The notes beneath the pieces were generated by a model. That model did not search any database. It was not told the origin of the DNA and was given only the letters and a program-made list of their open reading frames with translations. A stretch of DNA of 64,000 bases from Desulforamulus reducens MI-1 (lineage in GTDB: Bacteria; Bacillota; Desulfotomaculia; Desulfotomaculales; Desulfotomaculaceae). Of this stretch, positions 21,304-44,182 are shown one piece after another (positions within the stretch are counted from its first letter, which is position 1; the number at the start of each line of letters is the position of its first letter). The stretch is from NCBI RefSeq assembly GCF_000016165.1, contig NC_009253.1:558001-622000 (forward strand). The letters run 5' to 3'. The translations under genes and the position numbers were made by a program.

Positions 21304-22062
21304 ATGAGGCTACAACTACTATTGGACTCAGAAAACCCAGTATTGTTGGCTACTAATTATCAACAACAAATTCAGGGGTTAATTTATAATTTATTAACCG
21401 ACCCACTTATGCAGGCATTTCTACATGATCATGGTTTTGATTATAACCAACGACGCTTTAAGCTATTTACTTTTTCCAGGCTGATGGGGAAAAGTTACTT
21501 TAACCAGCAGGATAAAACCCTAAGGATCACTCCGCCGGTATTACTCTACATCTCCAGTCCTTGGACAGAGTTTCTGGAAAATCTGGCCAACAGCCTATTA
21601 GCTCGGGGGTTCATTCAAATTGGTAAAAATCAATTGCAAGTGAAAGAAATTAAATTGGCAGTGACACCACCTTTTAATCAAGACCAAAGCTATCCCGTTA
21701 AAATGCTCTCCCCGGTAACGATGTATAGCACCCTTGAAACGAGGGAAGGCAGCAAAAAAACCTACTACTATTCCCCGACTGAGAGGGAGTTTACTAGGCT
21801 AATCGCTCAAAATTTAGTCAAAAAGGCCAGTGCCTTTTACGGTGAGGATTGGTCTAAACTATTCTTCTGCATTGAAGTAGCAAATTCATTTCGAGCAAGC
21901 CAGCAGAAAATCATCATCTATAAAGGAACTGTGATTAAAGGTTGGTTAGGGAATTATCATATTTCGGGCCACCCCAAAATGTTAAAATTGGCCTACGAAT
22001 CTGGCATTGGCAGCAAGAACAGCCAGGGGTTTGGGTTGTTTGAACTGTGTAACAACGGATAG
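21304..22062 (+). CDS. cas6: CRISPR endoribonuclease Cas6
   Basis: A 252-residue RAMP protein that cuts the repeat RNA to give crRNAs. The C-terminal glycine-rich loop GIGSKNSQGFGLFEL is the Cas6 signature, and the N-terminal half (RLQLLLDSENPVLLATNYQQQIQGLIYNLL) is the first ferredoxin fold. It is the first gene of the interference operon, and cas8b starts 15 bases later. Length is normal. Its substrate is the adjacent array whose repeats end GAATTGAAAC. Confidence 0.85.
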   Translation: MRLQLLLDSENPVLLATNYQQQIQGLIYNLLTDPLMQAFLHDHGFDYNQRRFKLFTFSRLMGKSYFNQQDKTLRITPPVLLYISSPWTEFLENLANSLLARGFIQIGKNQLQVKEIKLAVTPPFNQDQSYPVKMLSPVTMYSTLETREGSKKTYYYSPTEREFTRLIAQNLVKKASAFYGEDWSKLFFCIEVANSFRASQQKIIIYKGTVIKGWLGNYHISGHPKMLKLAYESGIGSKNSQGFGLFELCNNG

Positions 22063-22077
22063 AAAGGGAGCGATAAA

Positions 22078-24114
22078 TTGATTGAGGCCATGCGAACACT
22101 GGCCCTGGATTACCTAGTTCAGGAATTGGCTGGTTACCCGGTGCCCCAGGATCCGGAGCAGTGGTATCAGGAATTTAGAAAAAACTCCCCGGGCAGGATG
22201 TTTCCCTACTTGGTGGAGGACAGCGGCAGAATCGAAAAGGTTTATCTACTAGAGGAAAAAGCAACGGGGGTTGTGGAACTGACGGTACAGGACATGATCC
22301 ATGAGCCGGGCGGGAGTCGGGTTGGTTGTACCCAGGATAAATTACCTTTTATTAAACCCCCTGGTTCCCAAAGCCCCCAGATGGGGCCTGTGATTAAACG
22401 TAGTTATCAAAGCGGCAAGAGTGGCCCAAGCGCCAAAATTCTTAATACCACCATGAAAAGCTTTGCAGAAATAGCTTCAGATAATAAACCCTGGTCATCC
22501 TATTTTAAACAGATAGTGGAAATCCTCAGTGCCCCTCGGTTAAAACTGGTGGATCATTCCACTGTGGATTGGCAACAAGAGGGTTACGCTAATTTGTTAG
22601 ACTGTGTGGTGCAAAGGATCGGCCCAGAGAAGAATACCGTTTTCCTAGCGGTGAAAGACAGAAACGGACGGTTACCTGGTGAAGTATCGGAATATATTGA
22701 CTACTTACTCGGGGAAAAGCTGGCGGGTGAACGGTATGTAACTAGCGAAGCCCGGGCACAGGAAGACGGAGAATGTCCCCTGTGTAATGCAACTAAGGTA
22801 ACTGTTTTTCCCAATGCCCTAAAAGGTGCGGGTATCAACTTTAAAAACACCGATCGGATTGGTGTCTTTCCGGGTGTTAACCCGGCCCAGGCCTGGAAGG
22901 GCTATGCCCTCTGTGGGGCCTGTGCGGATCTGTTATACGTGTACAAACATCATGTCATTAAAAAAGGGGGTCCGAACAAGGATCGGCAATTTTTTGGCAG
23001 CAAAATTGCCGGTGATTCCGCACTGGTGATACCGGTATTTTTTCCCGGTTTAGCGGCGGAGGTAAGGCAAGAACTTCTGTCCGACGTAACCGATTATATT
23101 AACAACATGAACAGTAATGTAACCCAGGACGAAGAAAGCCTGCTGGATATTTTGAAAGATGAAAAAAGCATTCTTAGCTTAATCTTTTTATGGGCTGATG
23201 TAGGACAAAACCTAGAAAATGTTACAGGTATGATTCACAGTGTGTTGCCCAGCCGGTTAAGAGAATTATCCCTGTTGAATGAGGCTTCCCGCAATTGGCA
23301 CCATCCTCTATTTCCCAATGTTCCCTTGGCAATAGAAACGGCAGACTTTAGGCCGGATTTATCACTAAGAGCACTAAAAGTACTATTCTACCGGCCCGGG
23401 GGCAAAAAAGCGAAGGATATAAATGCCAGTAAGCAATTGTTTCAAGTAAAAAAACAACTAGCTGCCTGCGTATACCACCGGACGCCGGTGTTACTAGAAC
23501 GGTTTTGGCAAGAAACAATAACTACCGCCCGCTGGCATTGGCTAGAAGCATCCCAAAAGAAGGATGGATATACAGGACTTCTTTACGAAGGAACAGGGAA
23601 AAACGGATCCTACTTAACACCCGCAGGGTGGATTAAGCATGTTAACTGGTGGTTGTACTATTTTAAACAGGTGGGGGTTATGGAAATGGAAAAGCAGTTT
23701 TACAAGCCTGCAATGGCTGAACTCCAGCCGTACTTTGGTTCTCAAAGCGGCATCGATACACCTGAAAAAGCCTATGCCTTTTTGCTGGGTGTGTTATATG
23801 GCAGATTACTAATGATTCAAGGGGGCAAAGGGGTAAACGTAGGGGCCAATGCTTTAACTTGGCTGAAACGCCTTACCCTAAAGGGTAAAGATTTACCAGA
23901 ACTTTATACCAAGATCAGAAGCAAAATACTAGCCTACGAAGCCGAAAAATCCCAGGCGGTAAGGGAATTGATTACAGAAATTAGTACTCTGGGCATTGCC
24001 TTGGGGGACAATATTAAGCTAAGCGAAGTACAAACAAACTATTACCTGTTGCTGGGACAGGCCATGACAACTGTTATTCTTTCGAAAAAAACTGAGAAGG
24101 AGAATGAGGCCTAA
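22078..24114 (+). CDS. cas8b: Type I-B Cascade large subunit Cas8b
   Basis: A 678-residue protein with a zinc-finger pair CPLC...CGAC (near residues 225 and 275), typical of the Csh1/TM1802 kind of Cas8b. It is the large Cascade subunit that recognises the PAM and helps recruit Cas3. The TTG start at 22078 is preceded by AAGGGAG at correct spacing. Its stop overlaps the cas7 start by one base. Assignment rests on position, size and the cysteine motif, since Cas8 proteins diverge strongly. Confidence 0.8.
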   Translation: MIEAMRTLALDYLVQELAGYPVPQDPEQWYQEFRKNSPGRMFPYLVEDSGRIEKVYLLEEKATGVVELTVQDMIHEPGGSRVGCTQDKLPFIKPPGSQSPQMGPVIKRSYQSGKSGPSAKILNTTMKSFAEIASDNKPWSSYFKQIVEILSAPRLKLVDHSTVDWQQEGYANLLDCVVQRIGPEKNTVFLAVKDRNGRLPGEVSEYIDYLLGEKLAGERYVTSEARAQEDGECPLCNATKVTVFPNALKGAGINFKNTDRIGVFPGVNPAQAWKGYALCGACADLLYVYKHHVIKKGGPNKDRQFFGSKIAGDSALVIPVFFPGLAAEVRQELLSDVTDYINNMNSNVTQDEESLLDILKDEKSILSLIFLWADVGQNLENVTGMIHSVLPSRLRELSLLNEASRNWHHPLFPNVPLAIETADFRPDLSLRALKVLFYRPGGKKAKDINASKQLFQVKKQLAACVYHRTPVLLERFWQETITTARWHWLEASQKKDGYTGLLYEGTGKNGSYLTPAGWIKHVNWWLYYFKQVGVMEMEKQFYKPAMAELQPYFGSQSGIDTPEKAYAFLLGVLYGRLLMIQGGKGVNVGANALTWLKRLTLKGKDLPELYTKIRSKILAYEAEKSQAVRELITEISTLGIALGDNIKLSEVQTNYYLLLGQAMTTVILSKKTEKENEA

Positions 24115-25103
24115 TGGAAAAGCAAGTCAATACTTTATCGGGTCGAAAAGAGTTCTTATTCCTGTACGATATTAAAATGGGTAACCCCAATGGTGATCCG
24201 GATGAAAACCGCCCCCGTGTACTGCCGGACGGCACCTATTATGTGACAGATGTACGGCTGAAACGCTACAGTAGAGACTTTTTAAAGCAACTTGGCCATG
24301 CTATTTTAGTGGATAACATCGAAGGGAGAACCACCAACCTTACCGGCCGGGTGGCTTACTATCTAAACAAAACCGGCCAGGAAAAGGCCGAAGGTAGCCA
24401 ACTGGTTGATATCCTACTGGATTCCTTCATTGATGCCCGTATTTTTGGCAGTTCACTTGCCTTTAAGGCTGAAAAGGTTAAAGATGCCAAGGGGAAGGAA
24501 ACTACCTGGGAGCCAAAACCCGAGCCCAAAACACTCACCGGTGCCACCCAGATAAACATGGGTGAGGTGCTGCACCAGGCAGAAAGTGTAGATATACACG
24601 GAACTTCCTTCTTTGGCAGTGATGATTCCAAAACCCAGGGAACCTTTACCACCTTTTATGGGTTGCGTTATGCACTGATTGGCTTCTCGGGGATAGCAAA
24701 CCAACATTCGGCTAAAACTTCCCATATGAGCGATAACGACTACGACCTGTTGCTGAAATCCATGTGGCACGGTGTTCGGTCTGCCGCCAATACCCGGACG
24801 AAGGTGGGCCAAATACCCCACCTGTTAATCAGTATTGAATACAATGAGGGAGAAGAATTTCAGTTTGGCCGCCTGCACGACTATGTAAAACTTCTTGCAG
24901 GGGACGATAAGGAAGAAAAAAGCTGGGCCTCCCCCGAAGATTACAAGGTAGATTTAGCCAAACTAATAGAGAGAATTGAAGGACAAAGCCAGCGAATTAA
25001 GAACGTGCGCTATGCTGTTTCACCGGATCTGCAATTACTGCAGGAGATACCGGTAAAATGGCAACTAATGGATATAGAAAATGTAACAAAGGCAGTGGAA
25101 TAA
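24114..25103 (+). CDS. cas7: Cascade backbone protein Cas7 (Csh2 type)
   Basis: 329 residues opening with FLYDIKMGNPNGDPDENRPR, the standard start of I-B Cas7/Csh2, and containing GATQINMGEVLH and SAANTRTKVGQIPHLL. It polymerises along the crRNA spacer. One-base overlap with cas8b and a 1-base gap to cas5 indicate a single operon. Confidence 0.9.
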   Translation: MEKQVNTLSGRKEFLFLYDIKMGNPNGDPDENRPRVLPDGTYYVTDVRLKRYSRDFLKQLGHAILVDNIEGRTTNLTGRVAYYLNKTGQEKAEGSQLVDILLDSFIDARIFGSSLAFKAEKVKDAKGKETTWEPKPEPKTLTGATQINMGEVLHQAESVDIHGTSFFGSDDSKTQGTFTTFYGLRYALIGFSGIANQHSAKTSHMSDNDYDLLLKSMWHGVRSAANTRTKVGQIPHLLISIEYNEGEEFQFGRLHDYVKLLAGDDKEEKSWASPEDYKVDLAKLIERIEGQSQRIKNVRYAVSPDLQLLQEIPVKWQLMDIENVTKAVE

Positions 25104-25104
25104 C

Positions 25105-25833
25105 ATGATGAAACTAATTGCTTTCCGCCTTAGTGGCCGGTTTGGTCATTTTCTCCGGGCGGAGGCGGGGACCAGTGCCCTAAGCTACCCGGTGCCGCCC
25201 CGGACAGTTTTACTGGGCATCCTGGGGGCGGTACTGGGCCTGGAAAAGGATCTCCCCCAGGAACTGTTGGAGCCGCTACACATTGCCCTGGCTGGGCCGG
25301 TACCCCAAAGCCACTGGCATAAGGCTAAACTGCGTAAGGACCCGCCCGAAGCACTGCCCCAGGTGGTGAAAAATAACCAAAAACAGGAAAAGACTACAAA
25401 GCCAGAAATGGCTACGTTAATCACCCAGGAATGGCTGTTTAACCCTGCTTACACTATTTGGGTTGCCTTGCCAGAACCCTACCATCAACAATTGGAACAG
25501 CGACTAAAGGAGCGGTGCTGGCATTTTCAACCCTGCCTAGGCCTTTCAGAGATGATGGCAGATATCGAATACTTGGGGACCTTAATGGCAGAAAAATTGC
25601 CCAGGGGCAGTTACCCCGTAACATCCATTATTCCGCAGGAACAGGCCAAACTAGATTTAACCCAGGTATACGACCAGGAGCTGGCACTTCAACCCCTCCG
25701 TATGCCCAGAACCGTTACTTCTAGCCGGGTATTTGGCCACTCTAGCTACTTCATTGAAACTAAGGGCCACCCGGTGATGGTAGAGACAGAGCAAGCCTAC
25801 CAAGTTGGGGACCGGGTTTTGATGTTTATATGA
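25105..25833 (+). CDS. cas5: Cascade subunit Cas5 (type I-B)
   Basis: 242 residues with the Cas5 N-terminal pattern AFRLSGRFGHFLRAEAGTSALSYPVPPRTVLLGILGAVLG; the P-P-R-T and G-rich helix are typical. It caps the 5' handle of the crRNA. It overlaps cas3 by 4 bases. Confidence 0.85.
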   Translation: MMKLIAFRLSGRFGHFLRAEAGTSALSYPVPPRTVLLGILGAVLGLEKDLPQELLEPLHIALAGPVPQSHWHKAKLRKDPPEALPQVVKNNQKQEKTTKPEMATLITQEWLFNPAYTIWVALPEPYHQQLEQRLKERCWHFQPCLGLSEMMADIEYLGTLMAEKLPRGSYPVTSIIPQEQAKLDLTQVYDQELALQPLRMPRTVTSSRVFGHSSYFIETKGHPVMVETEQAYQVGDRVLMFI

Positions 25834-28181
25834 CAGAACAACTAAAATCACACCCACACCTTTTTTTACACCAGCACATTGAGCAGGTTAACCAGGCCAC
25901 AAAGGCAATAAGAGATTGGCATACTACTGACACAATAACCAATGATATAAAGTTATTGCTGGGCCATCTGGCCAAATACCATGATTTGGGCAAGGGTACC
26001 CCTGCCTTTCAGGAATATATCGAAAATCCAGAGGGTTATCAGGGTGATCCCCAGGAGAAGGCCCATTCAACTCTTTCTTTACTGCTGACACTGGCCATTG
26101 CAAGGCAGCAATCCTGGGAGGAGTTACACACCCTGGTCATTGCCGCCGCTGTTGCCGGGCATCACAGCAGACTGCCAACCATCCCGGAGAAGAAAATAGG
26201 GGGCGTATGTTGCCCCCAATGGGATATCGACGGCTTTGCGGGGGGAGAAAAGGCGTCACTCTTGAAACGGCAATTAGCCAGCATCGATTTCCCTGCACTA
26301 GAGCAGGAAACAAAGGTAGAATTTGGGTCTTATGGTTTGGCCCAGGCATTGCAAAGCGACCCAGCCAAATCTTTGAGGGAAATGAAGAGATTTTTAATCA
26401 CAAGAATATATGGCATATTTGCCTCCCTAAGTTTGGAAGAAGCCCTAAGATTAAGAATGAAGGCGCAACTGCTCTATTCGGTTTTACTGGAAGCGGATAA
26501 GGCTTTGCTGGCAGTATCCAGCCCAGAGGTGTATTTAAACAGAGAGGTTCGGCATTGGCAGTCCCGGTGGGTTGAGGATAAAATTGGCAAGCCCCCGGAG
26601 ACCTCAATTAATCAATTGAGACAAAGGGCAAGGCAAGGGGTAATTGCCGCACTGGAGGCCAAAAACACCAACCTTTACAGTCTCACCGCTCCAACAGGCT
26701 GTGGCAAAACCATGCTGGCAGCCACTTGGGCCCTTAAATTAAGAGAACGGGTGACCGAAGGACAGGCTCCGCCCAAGATTATCATTGTACTACCATTTTT
26801 ATCAGTCATCGACCAAACGGCCAGGGAATATGCCAGGCTATTATCCCACAGTGGGCAAGAAACAGATGGTCGCTGGCTTATCCAGAGCCATTCCCTGGCC
26901 GATCGCCACTACGCCAGGGGGTTAGAGGATGAGGACGGTCGTTTTTTTATTGATACCTGGCGCAGTGAAATAATCATTACAACCTATGACCAGTTTTTAA
27001 TGAGTTTGTTAGATCCCCGGGCTAAGTACCAAATGAGGTTTCATAATCTGTGTGATGCCATGATAATCATGGATGAAGTACAAGCATTGCCTTGTAAATT
27101 ATGGCAGACACTGGAAAAGGTATTTCAGGCCCTAGCCAGTGAGGGCAATAGCAGGTTGCTACTGATGTCAGCCACGCTACCGCCCTTTATGAAAGAGGCA
27201 CTTCCTTTATTGCCGGACTACCAAGGATATTTTACCCTGTTTAATCGTTACACCCTGCAACTACGGCTACAGGAATCACAGACGTTGGATAATTTCTGCG
27301 AAGAAATGTCAGACAGATTGATTGGTTGGCTGGAATGTAGCAATCGCATTCTGATCACCCTAAATACCCGCCACAGTGCTCGCAGGGTGCGGGATTTTCT
27401 TAGCCAAAGTTGGCCTGCTGAGTATGGAGATGTGCCGCTGTTCTTTATCAGTGCCGATGTGACACCAAAGGACAGGCTGGAAATAGTAAAACAAATCAAA
27501 CAGGGCAAACCCTGTGTTGTTGTATCAACCCAGTGTATTGAGGCCGGTGTGGATATTGATATGGATCGAGTTATCCGGGATTTTGGCCCCCTGGACAGCA
27601 TTATTCAAATTGCCGGAAGATGCAACCGTGAAGGGCTAAGGGCCCAGGGTGTCGTTGAGGTGGTGGATTTAATCAATGAACAGGACAAAAGATATTCAGA
27701 AATGATATATGATACTACCCACCTGCAAATTACCAGAAAAATTTTAGCAGATAAGCAGGAAATTCAGGAGAAGGAAATAATAACTTTATCCACTCAGTAT
27801 TTTAAAGATTTAACCGAGCAAAAGGATACTGGGTACAATCATTTGATACGCTTTGCCAAATGGCAGGAGGATACGCCGGTAAAGGAGCTGCTTAGGGGTA
27901 AAGAACGATTGCAGATAGATTTTTTGGTGTTGGAACAAGATGCAGAGTTGAGGGATGAAATGCAGATAGTGGGCCGTATAAAGGACAGGTGGGAAAGAAG
28001 GGAAGCGTGGAGAAAACTGTCCGGCAGAATTGCCCTTGTTTCAGTTAGTATTTTTGCCCAACCAGGTTTCCACCCAGAACAAATAGCAGATGAATTCATG
28101 GGGAGTTGGTGGGTGGTTCGGGAGGGTTATTATAACAGTAAACAGGGATTATTGATTGAGGGAGAAACAATGATTTTATAG
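25830..28181 (+). CDS. cas3: Cas3 nuclease-helicase
   Basis: 783 residues. The N-terminal HD nuclease has KYHDLGKG (H51, D52), AHSTLSLLL and AGHHSRL. The SF2 helicase has TAPTGCGKT near 290, MDEVQALP near 415, LLMSATLPP, and STQCIEAGVDIDMD with QIAGRCNREG as motif VI. All key residues are present, so interference looks intact. It is the last gene before the CRISPR leader and array. Confidence 0.9.
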   Translation: MTEQLKSHPHLFLHQHIEQVNQATKAIRDWHTTDTITNDIKLLLGHLAKYHDLGKGTPAFQEYIENPEGYQGDPQEKAHSTLSLLLTLAIARQQSWEELHTLVIAAAVAGHHSRLPTIPEKKIGGVCCPQWDIDGFAGGEKASLLKRQLASIDFPALEQETKVEFGSYGLAQALQSDPAKSLREMKRFLITRIYGIFASLSLEEALRLRMKAQLLYSVLLEADKALLAVSSPEVYLNREVRHWQSRWVEDKIGKPPETSINQLRQRARQGVIAALEAKNTNLYSLTAPTGCGKTMLAATWALKLRERVTEGQAPPKIIIVLPFLSVIDQTAREYARLLSHSGQETDGRWLIQSHSLADRHYARGLEDEDGRFFIDTWRSEIIITTYDQFLMSLLDPRAKYQMRFHNLCDAMIIMDEVQALPCKLWQTLEKVFQALASEGNSRLLLMSATLPPFMKEALPLLPDYQGYFTLFNRYTLQLRLQESQTLDNFCEEMSDRLIGWLECSNRILITLNTRHSARRVRDFLSQSWPAEYGDVPLFFISADVTPKDRLEIVKQIKQGKPCVVVSTQCIEAGVDIDMDRVIRDFGPLDSIIQIAGRCNREGLRAQGVVEVVDLINEQDKRYSEMIYDTTHLQITRKILADKQEIQEKEIITLSTQYFKDLTEQKDTGYNHLIRFAKWQEDTPVKELLRGKERLQIDFLVLEQDAELRDEMQIVGRIKDRWERREAWRKLSGRIALVSVSIFAQPGFHPEQIADEFMGSWWVVREGYYNSKQGLLIEGETMIL

Positions 28182-28378
28182 AGTTTCCGGTGTTAGTAAT
28201 GAAGGCTAAAAAAGTCGTCGATCTCCGGTGGCGTAATAACTCCGGGGGATCGACGACAATGGCAAAACACATAGATGCTTATAACATGCGGGGTGCGGGG
28301 TTTTACCCTTACTCCCCGGTGGTGGTTAAATAAAAGGTCTGTCAAACGGCAGGCCGCATATTTACTGAATTTTGACGG
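28182..28378 (+). promoter_or_regulatory. CRISPR leader
   Basis: This is the non-coding DNA between cas3 and the first repeat. Repeats are oriented with GAAAC at their right end, so the leader is on this side. It contains a perfect 10-bp inverted repeat GTCGTCGATC / GATCGACGAC (28214-28223 / 28248-28257) that could end the cas3 transcript or bind an integration factor. Confidence 0.65.
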
Positions 28379-29743
28379 GTTATCAGCCTACCTATAAGGA
28401 ATTGAAACCCGTATTTTTAGGAAGCAGGGATCAAAGCACAAAAGAGTTATCAGCCTACCTATAAGGAATTGAAACTCCCTATCCTTGGCAGTATCGTTTT
28501 CTGGAGGTACTGTGTTATCAGCCTACCTATAAGGAATTGAAACATTGTTTCAAGGCTTGGTTGCAATTTTCCGGTTTCGTTATCAGCCTACCTATAAGGA
28601 ATTGAAACACAATTACGAAAACGTATTAGTTACCGAGGAAAATATTGGTTATCAGCCTACCTATAAGGAATTGAAACAATATCAAGATGCTTTAAAACTA
28701 GGCGTTAAATTTGGTTATCAGCCTACCTATAAGGAATTGAAACGTTTTTTGTTCCAATTGTGCCCCAAAACTTGGGGCACGTTATCAGCCTACCTATAAG
28801 GAATTGAAACCACCATGCCGGGGCTAGGTTTACAAAGATTAGCATACGTTATCAGCCTACCTATAAGGAATTGAAACATTTACCAATAAATGTATATTAT
28901 ATAATTTGAATATAGGTTATCAGCCTACCTATAAGGAATTGAAACATTTGAGTCTGCTGCACTCAATTTTCGGAGGGTATAGTTATCAGCCTACCTATAA
29001 GGAATTGAAACCTACATAATATATAAATTATGTAGCGAGTTATCAGCCGTTATCAGCCTACCTATAAGGAATTGAAACGTTTTTTGTTCCAATTGTGCCC
29101 CAAAACTTGGGGCAGTTATCAGCCTACCTATAAGGAATTGAAACCAAAAGATAAAAATAATAGTATCATTTAATCAGGGGTTATCAGCCTACCTATAAGG
29201 AATTGAAACATGCCCGTCCGGTAGAAGAACCAGCAGGCAAACATCCGTTATCAGCCTACCTATAAGGAATTGAAACATACTTTTATGCAGTCGATGTTTT
29301 CTTCGGTGACACGGGTTATCAGCCTACCTATAAGGAATTGAAACATAATATTAGGGATTGCAATATACAAGTTTGGTCTTCTCCGTTATCAGCCTACCTA
29401 TAAGGAATTGAAACTTGTGCCTACCCTGTTATGTAGAGTAAGCACTAAAAAGTTATCAGCCTACCTATAAGGAATTGAAACCTATTTTTTGGTTGGTGTT
29501 TGTCATTGTTATGCACGTTATCAGCCTACCTATAAGGAATTGAAACGTAATATTGCATACGAATTTCTTCATGGTATCATCCGTTATCAGCCTACCTATA
29601 AGGAATTGAAACGAAATATCCAAAAAGCTTTAGAAAAACGGCTAGAGAGTTATCAGCCTACCTATAAGGAATTGAAACTTGGCAAGTACGCTTTAAATTC
29701 CGGTGAGAAGATCGTTATCAGCCTACCTATAAGGAATTGAAAC
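28379..29743 (+). CRISPR. CRISPR array, 21 repeats and 20 spacers
   Basis: The 30-base repeat starts GTTATCAGCC, continues TACCTATAAG and ends GAATTGAAAC. I count 21 full, essentially identical copies, first at 28379-28408 and last at 29714-29743, with spacers of about 35-38 bases. An extra 10-base piece of repeat (GTTATCAGCC, 29039-29048) abuts the full repeat at 29049. The spacers at 28744-28780 and 29079-29114 are the same except for one base at the end. The sharp repeats suggest an active array. It lies between cas3 and cas4. Confidence 0.97.
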
Positions 29744-29824
29744 ATTGCTAACTTAGGGACCCTAGAGACAATAAAACGATAGAATACCCACAAAAATCTT
29801 TATTAAATCCCGGAGGTGAAAAGT

Positions 29825-30331
29825 TTGGAATATGTGATGGTTCCTGTTACCGGAACGCTTATTTGGTACTATTACATTTGCCAGCGGGAGGTTTGGTTAA
29901 TTGGCCATCAAATTACACCGGACCAAAGTGATTCTAATATATCCCTGGGAAGGTATATTCACGAAAACTCATACGACAGAGAAAGAAAAGAACTTGTCAT
30001 TGGCCATAGTAAAATGGATGTATTCCGAGTTAGTAACGGGGAACTAGTTGTAGGAGAGGTTAAAAAAAGCTCAAAGTATAGTCAGAGTGCCCGTATGCAA
30101 CTTGCTTTTTATCTAATGGAATTACAAGACCGTGGGATTAAGGCCAGGGGGGAACTTCGCTTTCCCCAGGAGAAAAAGCTAGAAGAAGTTGTTTTGGATG
30201 AAAATATCCTGGAAGAACTGGGGAGGGCTTCCCAAGCGATTACCCAAATACTAAGCTTGCAAAGACCTCCGGAACCTAAAAAAATAAATTTTTGTAAAAA
30301 CTGTGCCTATGCTGAATTTTGCTGGGCTTGA
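29825..30331 (+). CDS. cas4: Cas4 adaptation exonuclease
   Basis: About 168 residues: RecB-like nuclease core with GELVVGEVKKSS and QLAFYLMEL, an N-terminal cysteine (YYICQREVW) and a C-terminal cluster CKNCAYAEFC that together would hold an iron-sulfur cluster. I prefer the TTG at 29825, eight bases after GGAGG; the GTG at 29816 overlaps that ribosome site. Cas4 trims prespacers and selects PAMs for Cas1-Cas2. It is the first gene after the array. Confidence 0.85.
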   Translation: MEYVMVPVTGTLIWYYYICQREVWLIGHQITPDQSDSNISLGRYIHENSYDRERKELVIGHSKMDVFRVSNGELVVGEVKKSSKYSQSARMQLAFYLMELQDRGIKARGELRFPQEKKLEEVVLDENILEELGRASQAITQILSLQRPPEPKKINFCKNCAYAEFCWA

Positions 30332-30349
30332 CGGAGGGGGGGTGTATTA

Positions 30350-31342
30350 ATGAAGAAAACGATCTACATTTTTTCAGATGGAGAGCTTCACCGAAAAGAT
30401 AATACCCTTTGTTTTGAAAAAGAAAAAGAAAAACGCTATATACCGATTGAGGACACCGGTGAAATAATGGCCTTTGGGGAAATAAACATTAACAAGCGTT
30501 TGTTAGAGTTTTTATCACAAAAGGAAATCTTACTACACTATTTTAACCATTACGGTTACTACATGGGGACATTTTACCCCCGGGAACATTTGAATTCTGG
30601 ATTTATGATCTTAAAGCAAGCGGAGCATTACATGGATCAAACCTTACGACTGAAGATTGCCATTGAGTATATTAGAGGGGGAGGCAAAAATATCCGCCAG
30701 GTGCTCAAGTACTACCAGGGCAGGGGAAGGTATGTGGGAGACAAACTAGAGGCAATAGAGAAACTTTTGCTAGATATAGATCAGCAGCAAGATATACCGT
30801 CCCTTATGGCGGTGGAGGGAAATATTCGAAGCTGGTATTACAAAGGCTTTGATGATATTATTTGTGATACTAATTTTGTTTTCGAGGAACGAAGCAGGCG
30901 GCCTCCCAAAAACTTTCTCAATACCTTGATTAGTTTTGGTAATTCCATAATGTATTCAATTTGCCTAAGTGAGATATATAAAACCCACTTAGACCCGCGG
31001 ATTGGCTACCTGCATGCCACTAATTTTCGGCGATTTTCTTTAAATTTGGATGTCTCCGAGATATTTAAGCCAATTTTAATAGATAGAACCATTTTCTCTT
31101 TATTGGCGCGTAAAATGATCACCGCCAAGGATTTTGATCGGGATGCAAACGGGGTTTTGCTAAAGGAAAAAGGAAAAAAGTGTTTTATTCATGCTTTGGA
31201 AGAAAAGTTAAAAACAACTATTAACCACCGGGATTTAGGCCGTCCTGTTTCCTACCGAAGATTAATTCGCCTTGAACTTTATAAATTAGAAAAACACCTG
31301 ATGGGGGAAAAAACTTATACACCATTTATTGCCAGGTGGTAA
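30350..31342 (+). CDS. cas1: Cas1 integrase
   Basis: 330 residues, full length for a I-B Cas1, with NSIMYSICLSEIYKTHLDPRIGYLHATNFRRFSLNLDVSEIFKPI, which includes the conserved H, and the acidic metal-binding positions. It integrates spacers together with Cas2. SD-like GGAGGGGGG precedes the ATG; cas4 ends 18 bases upstream. Confidence 0.9.
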   Translation: MKKTIYIFSDGELHRKDNTLCFEKEKEKRYIPIEDTGEIMAFGEININKRLLEFLSQKEILLHYFNHYGYYMGTFYPREHLNSGFMILKQAEHYMDQTLRLKIAIEYIRGGGKNIRQVLKYYQGRGRYVGDKLEAIEKLLLDIDQQQDIPSLMAVEGNIRSWYYKGFDDIICDTNFVFEERSRRPPKNFLNTLISFGNSIMYSICLSEIYKTHLDPRIGYLHATNFRRFSLNLDVSEIFKPILIDRTIFSLLARKMITAKDFDRDANGVLLKEKGKKCFIHALEEKLKTTINHRDLGRPVSYRRLIRLELYKLEKHLMGEKTYTPFIARW

Positions 31343-31366
31343 TGATTAACGAAGGACGTGGAATTC

Positions 31367-31630
31367 ATGTTTGTTATCCTGGTCTATGATGTAAATCAAA
31401 AGCGGGTTGCAAAGGTATTAAAAAGGTGTCGACAATATTTAACCTGGGTACAAAACTCGGTATTGGAGGGTGAAATATCTGACGTAAATCTTAAAAAGCT
31501 TAAAATGGAGTTGCAAAAGATCATTAATAAAGAAGAGGACTCGGTGATTTTTTATACCATGAGAACAACCAATTATTCTTCCAGGGAGTTAATTGGATTA
31601 CAGAAAAACGAGGAAGGGAATATCATTTAA
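31367..31630 (+). CDS. cas2: Cas2
   Basis: 87 residues starting MFVILVYDVNQKRVAKVLKRCRQYLTWVQNSVLEGE, the standard Cas2 beginning. I placed the start at ATG 31367 rather than the GTG nine bases earlier because homologues start at this methionine. Structural partner of Cas1. The cas locus ends here. Confidence 0.9.
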   Translation: MFVILVYDVNQKRVAKVLKRCRQYLTWVQNSVLEGEISDVNLKKLKMELQKIINKEEDSVIFYTMRTTNYSSRELIGLQKNEEGNII

Positions 31631-36533: not shown

Positions 36534-37133
36534 ATGAAGAAGCGTGGCAAATTTGTGGCGCTGGGTGTGATTTTACTGGCCTTTGTGGCGGTGGGTAGCA
36601 AACCCCTTTGGTCCGGGGGTGGAGAGAAAGCGAAAACACCCCAGGTGGTTACCACTCAGACCGAAGCTGGTCAAACAGACACCAGTAAAAGTGAGCCAAG
36701 TCAAGCAAAGGTCAGTTCTACAGATACTAGCCAGAACTCGGCAGTTCAGCAGCAAACAATTGCTGTTAACACAAAGGCCCCTAAGCTGGCTAAACTTTTA
36801 GAAGATAGCTTTGCCAAAGGCAAGCCCGTGGCGGTGGTCTATACCTACAACGCCGATTGCTGACCCACCACGAAGGAATTCTTTTCCCACCACCGGTCGG
36901 TGGTACAGCAAATTGAAAAGAAATATGGCGATCAGCTAACTTTTACTTGGATTGATATTGCTGTTTATCAGGAGTCTGAAGGGGCAGAGTTAAACAAAAC
37001 CGCTGCAGCAATGAAGGTTCAAACCGCTCCAGCCCTGGTGCTTTTTGATGGTAAGCAGAAGTTGGTGCAGACTTGGATGGGAGAATTGAACCAGGCTGAG
37101 GTCAGCAAAGCCATCGAACAGGTGGTGAAGTAG
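36534..37133 (+). CDS. Exported thioredoxin-family protein with in-frame UGA, candidate selenoprotein
   Basis: One frame runs 36534-37133 with a single internal TGA at 36861-36863. It opens with a signal/anchor MKKRGKFVALGVILLAFVAV, then a low-complexity linker, then a thioredoxin fold: VVYTYNADC-(UGA)-PTTKEFF, WIDIAVY, and APALVLFDGKQKLVQTWMG. The UGA sits where relatives have the second cysteine of a CC pair. A hairpin CCACC/GGTGG (36887-36891 / 36899-36903) lies 23-40 bases downstream, a possible bacterial SECIS. It abuts ccdA, which would supply electrons across the membrane. A nonsense mutation is the alternative. Confidence 0.65.
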
Positions 37134-37805
37134 ATGCCAGCTCTGGAAACGCTTTTGGCAGGCTCGTTACTGTTTTCCCTGCTGGCAGCCCTAACAGCAG
37201 GACTGTTCAGCGGGATTAGCCCCTGCACCTTACCCACCGCTGTTATGGTAGTGGCCTATGTGGGGGGCTATGACAATCGCTCACGACTAAAGGGCTTTAT
37301 CCTGTCCCTGTCCTTTGTGCTTGGCTTATCTCTCACCCTGGCCATTGCCGGGGCGGTGGTATCCGCTGTGGGAGGGCTGTTTATGGGGAGCAAGGTGGTC
37401 TGGTATCTGGCTGCCCTGGTGGCAGTGCTGATGGGAGCCAATCTGCTAGGGCTCTTTAAACTGCCTGGTTTTGGCGTCAACCCCACTGGGGTTAAGCAGG
37501 GCAGTGGGGTGCTGGGGGCCTTTTTGTTGGGCATTCCCTTTGCCATCATCGCCTCTCCCTGTACCGCTCCCATTACCGCCACGGTGCTGGCCTACGCCGC
37601 AACCAAAGGCAGTGTGTGGTACGGCTTTACCCTGCTCTTTGCCTACGCAATAGGTCGCAGCATCCCGCTGCTGGCTGCGGGAACATTTACTTCAGTTTTG
37701 AAAAATGCCTCGAAGTTTGAGAATTTTAGCTTAGTGGTGCAAAGGATTAGCGGTATGGCTTTGATTGGGTTAGGCTTTTATTTGCTGTATGGGATTGTTG
37801 ACTAG
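37134..37805 (+). CDS. ccdA: CcdA-family membrane electron carrier
   Basis: 223 residues, six membrane helices, with the paired redox cysteines in GISPCTLPTAV and ASPCTAPITAT. CcdA/DsbD-type proteins move electrons from cytoplasmic thioredoxin to extracytoplasmic thioredoxin-like partners. The ATG immediately follows the stop of the exported thioredoxin gene, so the two are a functional pair. Confidence 0.85.
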   Translation: MPALETLLAGSLLFSLLAALTAGLFSGISPCTLPTAVMVVAYVGGYDNRSRLKGFILSLSFVLGLSLTLAIAGAVVSAVGGLFMGSKVVWYLAALVAVLMGANLLGLFKLPGFGVNPTGVKQGSGVLGAFLLGIPFAIIASPCTAPITATVLAYAATKGSVWYGFTLLFAYAIGRSIPLLAAGTFTSVLKNASKFENFSLVVQRISGMALIGLGFYLLYGIVD

Positions 37806-40213: not shown

Positions 40214-40600
40214 TTATTTGTTGTTCTCCATAATAATTTGTAATATCTTTACTTTGTTTTCATGAATTACTGTTTGTTCATTAATAAGATTATTGTTTTT
40301 AGCCACACCTAGATCAGTAAGGACAATATGAGTATTAATAGGTATATCGGCATTCTCCAGAATTTTTCTGGCACAATGTAAATTACACCCGTCAATTACG
40401 ATAACTTTTGAGCCATCCTTAGCTTTTTCCACGAAAGAGCCAATCTTGCCACCAACGCCAGCTAGGCAAAAAAGTTTGCCTTGACCATCCATCGTTAATT
40501 GGCGACAAACATCATTGGCAATTTGACCCACGTTAGACCCTCCAGAACAAGAGAAAAAAAGTACGGGGGCAGAGGAACAACCACAATCACAATTACTCAT
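40214..40600 (-). CDS. DGC-domain putative zinc-binding protein, short form
   Basis: 128 residues: NCDCGCSSAPVLFFSCSGGSNVGQIAND and VIVIDGCNLHCARKILE, the same cysteine layout as the product of 38259-38756 but without its N-terminal extension. Downstream of the ArsP-like permease in a minus-strand operon (gap about 31 bases). Confidence 0.8.
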   Translation of the reverse strand: MSNCDCGCSSAPVLFFSCSGGSNVGQIANDVCRQLTMDGQGKLFCLAGVGGKIGSFVEKAKDGSKVIVIDGCNLHCARKILENADIPINTHIVLTDLGVAKNNNLINEQTVIHENKVKILQIIMENNK

Positions 40601-40631: not shown

Positions 40632-41804
40632 TTAGCCCCAGAAGGTACCAAAAATCATACCTGCCAGAGTAGACATGATGACCACCAGTGTTACATAAAC
40701 CGCTGTCTTTTTAGTGCCCATAATTTTGTGAATGACAATCATGCTGGGTAGGCTTAAGGCAGGACCAGCCAGGAGTAGGGAGAGGGCGGGGCCTTTGCCC
40801 ATGCCGCTGCCCAAAAGGCCCTGGAGGATGGGAACTTCCGTCAGGGTGGCAAAGTACATAAAAGCACCAAAGACCGAAGCCAAGAGATTGGCGCCCAGGG
40901 AGTTGCCACCCACCAATTGAGCCACATACTGCTCGGGGATAATTCCGGCATCCAGACCAGGGCGACCCATTAAAAAGCCAGCCACCAGTACACCACCCAG
41001 CAGCAAGGGGAAGATTTTCTTAGCAAAGTCCCAGGTGGAATCCAGCCAACCGGTAATTTCACTGCGATCGAACCAAAGTTTTAACAAAATAGCTAGTAGG
41101 ATGAGGAAAAAGATAGCTAAATACCAGTGTATTTCATAAACAGCATTGAAAAAGCCCACTGACTCCGGTGGTTTACCCCAGGCGGCAAAAATTAGAATGA
41201 AGACCATTGTAGCAAAGTAAAGGGCATATTGCCCCAGGGATCGCTGATCCTCCGGCGGGGGTGGCAAGGTAAGGGCAGCGGCCACCTTTTCCCGTTCTTC
41301 CTTAAGAAAAATGAGGTGCATCAGTAAGCCAATGATGATGGAAAATATCACTGCGCCCACTGCCCGGGCGATGCCGATATCGGCACCTAGAATCCTGGCG
41401 CTTAGAATAATGGCTAAGATGTTTATGGCTGGGCCAGAGTAAAGAAAGGCTGTGGCCGGACCAATACCAGCACCACGGGTGTAAATGCCTGCAAAGAGCG
41501 GCAGCACGGTGCAAGAGCAAACGGCTAACACCGTACCAGAAACCGAGGCTACGCCATAGGACAGAATTTTATTGGCTCCGGCCCCAAAATACTTGAGGAC
41601 CGATGCCTGGGAGACAAAGACAGAGATGGCACCGGCAATAAAGAAGGCTGGCACCAGGCAGGTAAGCACATGCTTCTGGGCGTAGTCCTGCAGCATGTAA
41701 AAGGCTTCCAGAATGGCCCCGGTAACACGGGGGTTCTCCAGGGGAATGTAGTAAGCCGCCAAAAACACACCGGCCATGAGCAAAAAGATATTCCGTTCCT
41801 TCAT
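40632..41804 (-). CDS. ArsP/DUF318-type permease, second copy
   Basis: 390 residues, about 10 membrane helices: AVCSCTVLPLFAGIYTRGAGIGPATAF, then SGPAINILAI, and near the end LLLAGPALSLPSMIVIHKIMG. It belongs to the predicted-permease family of ArsP but is clearly diverged from the 35435 copy, with a longer central loop. It is the first gene of a minus-strand pair with a DGC protein and is divergent from the 41975 gene across an AT-rich operator region. Confidence 0.8.
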   Translation of the reverse strand: MKERNIFLLMAGVFLAAYYIPLENPRVTGAILEAFYMLQDYAQKHVLTCLVPAFFIAGAISVFVSQASVLKYFGAGANKILSYGVASVSGTVLAVCSCTVLPLFAGIYTRGAGIGPATAFLYSGPAINILAIILSARILGADIGIARAVGAVIFSIIIGLLMHLIFLKEEREKVAAALTLPPPPEDQRSLGQYALYFATMVFILIFAAWGKPPESVGFFNAVYEIHWYLAIFFLILLAILLKLWFDRSEITGWLDSTWDFAKKIFPLLLGGVLVAGFLMGRPGLDAGIIPEQYVAQLVGGNSLGANLLASVFGAFMYFATLTEVPILQGLLGSGMGKGPALSLLLAGPALSLPSMIVIHKIMGTKKTAVYVTLVVIMSTLAGMIFGTFWG

Positions 41805-41974: not shown

Positions 41975-42211
41975 ATGGGCTGTTGTGATCCGAAAGCCCC
42001 GAGATTGATTAGCATCCGAGTAGGAGATGGCCAGGTGGGTTTGCGGGGTCTTGACATCATCGTGGAGGCTGTGCGGGGGCTGGACCTACAGAAGGAGGAA
42101 GAGATTAAACAAGAATTGTTGAGTAGGGTAAAGCTGTTCAACTATATTCCAGACTCTGTCAACGGGAAATATGCTGAGGCTTTGTGGGAATATTATAATG
42201 GGCAAGGATAA
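41975..42211 (+). CDS. Small conserved arsenic-cluster protein, 78 aa
   Basis: MGCCDPKAPRLISIRVGDGQ, followed by VGLRGLDIIVEA and a charged helical tail. The N-terminal CC pair and the globular rest occur in small proteins of arsenic/metal clusters whose function I cannot name. The ATG follows AGGAGGTG. It lies 30 bases before the metallochaperone-like gene, so both probably work together. Metal delivery is a guess from the cysteine pair. Confidence 0.6.
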   Translation: MGCCDPKAPRLISIRVGDGQVGLRGLDIIVEAVRGLDLQKEEEIKQELLSRVKLFNYIPDSVNGKYAEALWEYYNGQG

Positions 42212-42241
42212 ATATTCGATGATTGTAGGGGGGGCTAAGGT

Positions 42242-42706
42242 ATGATTTGTGGGTCAAAAACCTTGTTGTCAAAAGCTGCTCTTTGTCCTAAATGCGGTGG
42301 TCGGGGCAAGGGGATGCGCTCGGATACATTACGACACATGATTCAGAATCATCGCATTCCTAAAGTATTGGAAGGGTATCAGCTTTGTCTGAACCCGGAT
42401 TGTTCGGTGGTGTACTTTGGGTCGGAAGTATTTACAAAGGAAGATCTGATGACAAGGGTTTGGTTTAAAGAGACAGACCCGGATGTACCAGTATGCTACT
42501 GCAAGGAAGTTACCACTGGGGATATCCTGGAGCACATTGTGCAAAGGGGTTGTTGTCAGAATCTGCAAGATATCCAGAATCATACTGGGGCCAATACCGG
42601 TAAGGAGTGTCTGACCAAAAATCCTGCTGGAACCTGATGCAAGCCTGCAGTGCAATCGGTGATTGCCAGGGCGATTGAAATGAAAACCCGGAAGAGAACA
42701 GAGTAA
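42242..42706 (+). CDS. CopZ/BFD-like iron-sulfur metallochaperone with in-frame UGA, candidate selenoprotein
   Basis: An N-terminal zinc-type CPKCGG segment and CLNPDCSVVYFG, then a BFD-like [2Fe-2S] part (VCYCKEVTTGDILEHIVQRGCCQN). The frame meets TGA at 42635-42637 and continues 22 codons (CKPAVQSVIARAIEMKTRKR) to TAA at 42704. The family ends in a CC pair followed by PxVQxVI, so UGA stands for the first cysteine of the pair. A hairpin GCAATC-GGT-GATTGC (42652-42666), with an outer GCCTG/CAGG stem, begins 14 bases after UGA, like a bacterial SECIS with a GGU loop. The alternative is simple termination. Confidence 0.7.
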
Positions 42707-42742
42707 AGTTCTTTTCCGGGTTTGCTATTTATAAGGAGACTG

Positions 42743-43795
42743 TTATTTTACCGCACCACTGGCAGTAAAGTATTTCTTCTTAAAGCCCAAAGCAACATTC
42801 ACCAGTGCAATCATCACAGGTACCTCAATCAGAGGGCCAATTACTGCTGCAAAGGCTGCACCGGACTCGATACCGAAGATCGCTACAGCCACCGCAATGG
42901 CTAGCTCAAAGTTATTGCTGGCAGCGGTAAAGGCCAGGGTGGTGCTTTGGCCGTAGTTGACGCAGTTTCGCTTGCTCATGAAGAAGGATAAGAAGAACAT
43001 GATGCTAAAGTAAATCAAGAGCGGGATGGCAATGCGAACAACATCCATAGGCAGTTCCACAATATATTTGCCCTTCAGGGAGAACATAATCACGATGGTG
43101 AATAGTAGGGAAATAAGGGCCAACGGGCTGATGCGAGGTACAAATTCCTTTTCATACCACTCCTTACCCTTGCGGGGTACCAGTAAAGCTCTGGTTAGCA
43201 TACCACCGGCAAAGGGAATGCCCAGGTAAATGAGGACACTCTTGGCTACCTCCGCCATCGAGACGTGCACTTCAATGGCTTCCATACCCAGCCAGCCTGG
43301 TACCAGGGTAATAAAGAAGTAAGCATAAATAGAGTAAAAGACCATTTGAAAAATGGAATTAACCGCCACCAATGCGGCGGCGTACTCATTGTCCCCTTTG
43401 GCCAAATCGTTCCAAACAATCACCATTGCGATGCAGCGGGCAAGACCAATTAAAATAAGTCCAATCATATAATCAGGATAATCCCGCAGGAAGGCAATGG
43501 CTAGCACAAACATCAGGGTGGGGCCGATAATCCAGTTTTGTACCAGGGAAAGCCCCATGACTTTACCGTTTTTGAAGGCTTTGCCCATTTCTTCATATTT
43601 CACCTTTGCCAGGGGTGGGTACATCATAACAATCAGACCCACAGCAATGGGAATGGAAGTGGTGCCAATGGACATACTGTTTAACCAATCGGCAATGCCG
43701 GGAAATACATAACCCAGACCTACCCCAATGGCCATTGCTAGGAAAATCCACAGGGTTAGAAAACGGTCCAGGGTAGACAGTCTTTTTTCTGCCAT
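42743..43795 (-). CDS. acr3: Arsenite efflux transporter ACR3
   Basis: 350 residues, ten helices, with the ACR3 signatures [14 protein letters not shown] and [19 protein letters not shown] (conserved membrane cysteine) and [16 protein letters not shown]. It exports As(III). It follows the ArsR gene by 15 bases on the minus strand, the classic repressor-pump unit. Confidence 0.9.
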
Positions 43796-43810: not shown

Positions 43811-44182
43811 TTATTCATCTTTTTCACAGACAGATTTTTTTAAGCCCATCAGTTCACAATAATTAGGGGTCTCTCGTAGGGCTGAGGGTTTGACATCAGT
43901 GGTGGTAGCTTGCAGCAATTTTCCCAGATGTTGATCTACCAGTGGATAAATCTTTTGTAAGCCACAGGCTTTCAGGGTGTACAGCACTAGCTTGCCGTGC
44001 TTGATGTTTTCGATTAAATCCGCCTGACGTAAGATTTTTAAATGGTGTGACACCGCTGGCTGGGAGATGTTTAGACCTTGCATAATTTCGCAGACGCTCA
44101 GTTCCTGCCCGGACAGCATTTGCAGGATGTTTAACCGATGGGCATCCCCCAGAGCCTTATAAAGATTCACTAACCTTTCCAT
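43811..44182 (-). CDS. arsR: ArsR-family repressor
   Basis: 123 residues with a winged helix (SVCEIMQGLNISQPAVSHHLKILRQADL). The C in ELSVCEIM and cysteines in the C-terminal tail (NYCELMGLKKSVCEKDE) are candidate As(III) ligands. It precedes acr3. AT-rich palindromes upstream (44190-44250) should be its operator. Confidence 0.85.
   Translation of the reverse strand: MERLVNLYKALGDAHRLNILQMLSGQELSVCEIMQGLNISQPAVSHHLKILRQADLIENIKHGKLVLYTLKACGLQKIYPLVDQHLGKLLQATTTDVKPSALRETPNYCELMGLKKSVCEKDE

Follow-up and report, generated by a model that had tools for sequence, protein, structure and literature searches.

Introduction

A "(2Fe-2S)-binding protein (copper chaperone CopZ family)" is listed in two forms, form 1 and form 2, in the portions available of two reviews (PMC13188914, 2026, and PMC9312934, 2022), and an available table of the former gives the motif of form 1 as GxUC. 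A 2008 publication cited by both reviews (PMC2398784) does not use the name CopZ in its main text, and a copZ-type protein is not among the eight selenoproteins given for Desulforamulus reducens in the part available of a 2006 survey (PMC1794560). Here we describe a copZ-type gene with an in-frame UGA codon in a 64,000-nucleotide stretch of the D. reducens MI-1 genome (NC_009253.1, positions 558,001 to 622,000; hereafter the window, to which coordinates refer). Its product belongs to the already listed selenoprotein family and is not a new one. A search of the literature on selenoproteins with CopZ or arsenic did not reveal, among the matches listed, the family in ars operons or a form with two selenocysteine (Sec) residues, and Haft and colleagues may cover part of this ground. 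The linkage to ACR3 and to ars operons, and the placement of Sec at either end of the protein or, in one relative, at both, were not seen in the literature searched and are new relative to it.

Results

Gene and predicted protein

The copZ-type gene (42242–42706, plus strand) opens with an ATG at 42242, preceded by a run of G (42228–42234, plus strand) that is a putative, likely ribosome-binding site, and ends with a TAA stop codon at 42704–42706. With UGA read as Sec it encodes 154 amino acids. The UGA (42635–42637, plus strand) is codon 132, is directly followed by TGC and takes the place of the leading Cys in a C-terminal Cys-Cys pair, giving the translated sequence ...NPAGTUCKPAVQSVIARAIEM...; a gene caller that treats UGA as a stop would predict a shortened gene without Cys133. 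A terminator-like hairpin (42684–42723, plus strand; one found, 0.5 expected) overlaps the TAA stop codon and lies between converging genes.

The N-terminal part of the protein matches the zinc-ribbon domain zf_CopZ (PF18423, residues 13–69, 42278–42448, plus strand) with 61 bits (Pfam cut-off 28.4), and its four cysteines (Cys 15, 18, 49 and 54) are invariant in our alignment of relatives. A BFD-like [2Fe-2S] domain is predicted for residues 84–142 (PF04324, 42491–42667, plus strand), with a Fer2_BFD score of 24.9 bits that is slightly below the Pfam cut-off of 26; Cys 85, 87, 123 and 133 of this domain are conserved and aligned with Cys 75, 77, 109 and 119 of CopZ from A. fulgidus (2HU9), which we take to be the cluster ligands of that protein. 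A preliminary description had called the product a CopZ/BFD-like metallochaperone. No HMA domain was found at E 0.1 in the protein or in any of 20 members of the family scanned, so "CopZ-like" describes the fold of the Sec protein and not a copper role.

The AlphaFold model has a mean pLDDT of 91.5, with values below 50 for residues 1–10, and the tail that follows the UGA is a confidently modelled helix (residues 134–153). A Foldseek search matched the model to 2HU9, the N-terminal domain of A. fulgidus CopZ, with TM scores of 0.73/0.86 and 32% identity. In this match U132 aligns with Cys118 and Cys133 with the ligand position Cys119 (chain positions counted by hand), and Sec132 would, if the ligands assumed above are right, be the neighbour of a cluster ligand and not itself a ligand.

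Conservation of the UGA codon

Relatives were found in 35 of 100 related genomes with the copZ-type protein (threshold 0.001, fragments included) and, with an alignment as the query, in 32 of 113 genomes of the class (1e-8) and in 61 of 398 genomes drawn from the phylum (1e-15). A scan of named genomes with a single protein query confirmed no relative; the alignment-based scan of these genomes yielded 38 loci, of which 17 encode UC (UGA followed by a Cys codon), 20 encode CC and one is a fragment (L121). The same gene is carried by a contig of Desulforamulus putei, and the 25 loci read from the phylum search comprised 18 UC and 7 CC loci. Altogether 42 genes have the UGA at the same codon, namely 41 UC loci including the window gene and a second copy in genome G411. 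This set was selected for having UC, repeats were removed, the counts exclude interrupted or fragmentary loci (L041, L048–L050, L121) and matches in G002, G006, G017, G057 and G065, and matches of the class and phylum searches without an assigned locus are mostly outside the UC and CC counts.

The preliminary description had proposed a UGA-for-Cys selenoprotein whose frame continues beyond the UGA with the C-terminal pattern of the family, and the relatives bear this out. All 42 UGA genes go on as UC and a tail near PAVQSVI; the reading frame, the tail and the codons past the UGA are conserved across many genera; and in a C-terminal alignment of homologues the UGA falls on the first residue of the CC pair. 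Homologues ending before this point would have spoken for a true stop, and both the Cys-Cys relatives and A. fulgidus CopZ extend past it. The UGA-for-Cys proposal holds as to frame, codon and hairpin (see below), with the UGA conserved in a clade.

A tree was built from 37 UC and 26 CC rows after removal of some near-copies among the UC rows and of six copies among the CC rows (L105, L106, L111, L114, L122 and L123). In it the UGA genes form one side of a branch with support of 99/97, so that no Cys row falls among the UC rows; a search for a Cys version inside the UGA clade found none in this set, and the nearest Cys row, L165, lies just outside the clade. A smaller tree with fewer rows gave the same split (support 100/99). 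One locus, recorded as both L032 and L093, has, in addition to the usual UGA, another in frame at the position of Cys105 in relatives, which could be a second Sec, a mutation or a sequencing error. Interrupted or fragmentary copZ-type matches were seen at L041, L049, L050, G002:C9:28045-28269 and G006:C33:164696-164953, two of them in the same genus, and would fit repeated loss of the copZ-type gene.

A constrained hairpin downstream of the UGA codon

Twenty nucleotides 3' of the UGA lies the hairpin GCAATC-GGT-GATTGC (42652–42666, plus strand; loop at 42658–42660), with a stem of 6 bp. It is identified as a SECIS core by its conservation and codon constraint, and both its GGU loop and its position agree with the bacterial SECIS element that had been proposed. 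An outer stem that had also been proposed (GCCT 42643–42646 with GGGC 42669–42672; 42643–42672, plus strand) is present in the centroid fold of the window sequence, but showed no conservation at the three flanking column pairs checked in 41 loci.

The hairpin is conserved nearly to the letter, much more strongly than the remainder of the gene. Codon usage was compared among 23 UGA genes with a mean protein identity of 0.54 (23 of the 26 UC loci then known, L026, L032 and L038 being left out as near-copies). Codons 137–140 (V137, Q138, S139 and V140) were identical in all same-residue pairs, codon 141 (I141) in 91% and codon 142 (A142) in 56%; mean codon identity over the remaining 64 testable columns was 0.41, with one of these, Cys18, at 0.91, and the best six-column window outside the element reached 0.51. 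As Cys-Cys relatives vary at those residues, the peptide VQSVI itself may be a by-product of constraint on the RNA.

Across 41 UGA loci (L158, L162 and L169, the same loci as L098, L101 and L102, being left out), the six stem pairs were maintained in 245 of 246 cells, the sole exception being a C-A pair in L164, and the apical loop was GGT in 40 and GGC in one. Three A-T stem pairs had changed to G-T, and compensatory changes occurred in L039 (A-T to G-C) and in the second copy of G411, in which the outermost pair changed from G-C to T-A, altering the residue and keeping the pairing. By a mechanical test, a 6-bp stem with a loop starting with GG was present in 40 of 41 UGA loci versus none of 32 Cys-Cys loci, which include some copies of one locus. 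A constrained SECIS-type hairpin with G in its apical loop, as in bacterial selenoprotein genes, is therefore present close after the UGA. Of 41 UGA loci, 30 had the 6-bp hairpin in their lowest-energy 45-nt fold, and the other 11 had a competing fold. The folding energy of the window sequence was unexceptional relative to shuffled sequences (z of 0.16 for 45 nt and −0.77 for 32 nt), and energy was dropped as support for Sec, the difference being insignificant.

Selenocysteine machinery

The whole genome (one contig of 3,608,104 bases) was searched for the machinery, whose absence would have counted against Sec. SelA (531.9 bits), SelB (387.8 bits), SelD (399 bits) and a tRNA-Sec with anticodon tca were all found, and the SelD gene itself has one in-frame UGA. 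Co-occurrence with SelB was also considered as support for Sec and was rejected as uninformative, since SelB is present in 109 of 113 genomes of the class.

Selenocysteine at either end of the protein

Many of the CC relatives have a UGA near the N-terminus, read as CU or US (11 of 20 CC loci, four of which are nearly identical). The predicted fold after this UGA is a hairpin with a 3-letter loop in 10 of the 11 and with a 5-letter loop in L107. Of the 41 UC sequences whose N-termini were read, 32 have a Cys close to the start, one (L167) has a UGA there and eight have neither Cys nor Sec, which indicates that the N-terminal arm is not essential. L167, recorded also as L179 (G409:C1:2139698-2140117), carries two UGAs, in an N-terminal LUG and a C-terminal KUC. 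The first is followed by CTTTCC-GGT-GGAAAG (6-bp stem, GGT loop) and the second by GCAATC-GGT-GATTGC, the lowest-energy 45-nt fold at the latter being a different one. The idea that Sec at one terminus strictly excludes Sec at the other was rejected, as L167 has a UGA at both. Judged by the genes, Sec stands at opposite ends in form 2 relatives and in the window protein, and at both ends in L167. We tentatively suggest, as a possibility that we consider rather less than even, that the two ends of the fold come together next to the [2Fe-2S] cluster as a single site, to which a flexible N-terminal arm with Cys or Sec and the residue just before the fourth ligand contribute, with Sec placed C-terminally (form 1), N-terminally (form 2) or in both positions (L167), and that this site is a dedicated Fe-S selenolate clamp that might carry or reduce arsenite for ACR3 in anaerobes.

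Arsenic genes in the neighbourhood

In the window, the copZ-type gene is convergent with a gene for an ACR3 arsenite exporter (42743–43795, minus strand; TIGR00832, 469.6 bits, cut-off 282.8), which begins 36 bases past the copZ-type stop codon, and an ArsR/SmtB regulator gene lies beyond it (43811–44182, minus strand; NF033788, 85.6 bits, cut-off 55). On the other side are genes for an ArsP_1-type permease (40632–41804, minus strand; PF03773, 253 bits) and a DGC-domain protein (40214–40600, minus strand; PF08859, 116.9 bits). A gene coding for a 78-residue protein starting with MGCC (41975–42211, plus strand) ends 30 nt 5' of the copZ-type gene and is probably in the same operon; its product had no Pfam or NCBIfam match, and relatives of it were found in 39 of 113 genomes of the class and near the copZ-type gene in 3 of 26 other loci.

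ACR3 was matched at 1e-30 in 36 of the 39 genomes with UC genes, with no such match in the other three, and lay within 10 kb of the UC gene on the same contig in a quarter of them (10 of 39: G000, G001, G004, G020, G024, G059, G099, G234, G344 and G411). About 0.27 genomes would be expected under random placement of one ACR3 per genome, with kinship ignored; the ten genomes are related and hence not independent, G001 contributes a partial ACR3 match, and G411 counts through its second copy, the first having no ACR3 nearby. The remaining 29 genomes had no ACR3 at this distance on the contig of the UC gene; some contigs are short. In two loci the copZ-type gene lies inside an ars operon: L180 has, on one strand, genes for an ArsP-type permease, a thioredoxin, a thioredoxin-like protein, a CcdA-like protein, the copZ-type protein, ACR3 and an arsenate-reductase-like protein (143.7 bits, below the cut-off of 174.3), and in L181 the order is thioredoxin-like, CcdA-like, copZ-type gene, small ORF, ArsR, ACR3, ArsD and ArsA. 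Thioredoxin-like and CcdA-like genes are also located 5' of the copZ-type gene in L188 (BLAST and inspection by eye).

Within 6.5 kb, BLAST detected ACR3-like genes in 5, ArsR (one of two types) in 9, YnfA-like genes in 7 and ArsP-like genes in 3 of 26 UC loci other than the window, a set that includes the interrupted copy L072 and some near-copies; in 15 CC or form 2 loci the counts were 0 for ACR3, 3 for ArsR and 1 for ArsP. These are lower bounds because some contigs are short. L183, L184 and L190 had no match to the ars genes of the window within 3 kb. An initial clustering of neighbours had given ArsR in 10 of 27 loci and was rejected in favour of the BLAST counts, as the cluster had mixed in an unrelated-looking protein. 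The proposed use of selenocysteine in arsenic handling gains support from the ten linked genomes and the operons of L180 and L181, beyond what the preliminary description could draw on, but the link is partial in view of the 29 unlinked genomes.

Elsewhere in the window, a thioredoxin-like frame (36534–37133, plus strand; Thioredoxin_2, 25.3 bits, below the cut-off of 27) contains a UGA at 36861–36863 in ...NADCUPTT..., followed by ACCACC-GGTC-GGTGGT, adjoins a CcdA-like gene (37134–37805) and may possibly be a second selenoprotein gene. A row of ORFs at 21304–31630 resembles, by eye, a type I CRISPR-Cas operon.

Discussion

Codon 132 very probably encodes Sec. If the UGA were instead a real stop, the product would have 131 residues and the similarity downstream would be a relic or chance. 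UGA normally serves as a stop codon, a hairpin resembling a terminator begins 46 nt past it and the energy of the SECIS-type hairpin is unexceptional, but we consider this reading very improbable given that frame, tail and codons after the UGA are conserved in 42 genes and that truncation would remove Cys133, aligned with what we take to be a cluster-ligand position. Taken together, the data are in our opinion best explained, with somewhat better than even likelihood, by a true Sec protein of the Fe-S type that serves arsenite export, either as a metallochaperone or as a redox adaptor; for the window locus itself, an arsenic-handling role is reasonably probable. We infer the substrate, the partner and the direction of transfer as follows. 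SelB and Sec-tRNA would read the UGA (42635–42637) as Sec by means of the GGU-loop hairpin 20 nt downstream. The product would be soluble and combine a zinc ribbon with a BFD-like [2Fe-2S] domain, and its Sec132 would directly precede Cys133, at the presumed fourth ligand position. The selenolate beside the cluster, probably together with the flexible N-terminal Cys3, would bind or reduce a soft, thiophilic substrate, As(III) being the most likely one. The protein would then hand As(III) or electrons over to ACR3 and be kept reduced by the thioredoxin-CcdA pair of some operons.

Two other roles would leave the Sec assignment untouched. The protein could transfer electrons, through selenylsulphide chemistry at the [2Fe-2S] cluster, for thioredoxin, CcdA or arsenate reductase and not carry arsenite at all. 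The BFD-like ferredoxin domain, the thioredoxin-like and CcdA-like genes directly 5' in L180 and L181 (and those in L188) and the ability of a CopZ-family metallochaperone to reduce Cu(II), described in the part available of PMC7830388, point in this direction, but the conserved zinc ribbon and the exporter neighbours would suit a carrier too, and we regard a purely redox role as possible though doubtful. Alternatively, a classical CopZ-type chaperone for copper (or zinc/cadmium) might stand near ars genes by happenstance, as the best solved relative is the N-terminal domain of A. fulgidus CopZ and a putative cation-efflux-like neighbour was seen by BLAST in 3 of 26 loci; this is quite improbable in view of the lack of an HMA match in all 20 members scanned and of the occurrence of ACR3 nearby above chance. 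The arsenite-export reading gives a listed family of unknown function a testable hypothesis, namely a Se-dependent step in the handling of arsenite by anaerobes. The family also offers a natural test of the role of Sec beside an Fe-S cluster, since its relatives differ in having Sec at one end, at the other, at both or, with Cys only, at neither.

Comparison with known systems

The window protein shares with form 1 (WP_245779778.1) the CopZ-like BFD class and the motif GxUC, here G-T-U-C, the two being matched by name and motif; the available parts of PMC13188914 and PMC9312934 say nothing on ars operons for form 1. Form 2, represented by NF045877 (CopZ_Nterm_CU, the Csac_0668 family), has the same two domains, but the window protein scores 106.6 bits against its cut-off of 190 and starts with MICG, without an N-terminal CU, whereas form 2, judged by its name and the relatives read, has Sec in the N-terminal CU and keeps CC at the C-terminus. 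The putative Fe-S metallochaperone NF047645 (CopZ_Nterm_CC) has the same fold, but the score of 78.4 bits does not reach the cut-off of 100 and the window protein has Sec in place of Cys. ArsD, the arsenite metallochaperone, would share the possible job of delivering arsenite to an exporter, and both genes occur in L181; it belongs to an unrelated family by Pfam match (PF06953) and is not known to have an Fe-S cluster. A. fulgidus CopZ also has a C-terminal HMA domain, the mark of copper chaperone CopZ proper that the window protein does not show, and its N-terminal domain (2HU9) has the same fold as the window protein, with CC there in the place of UC here.
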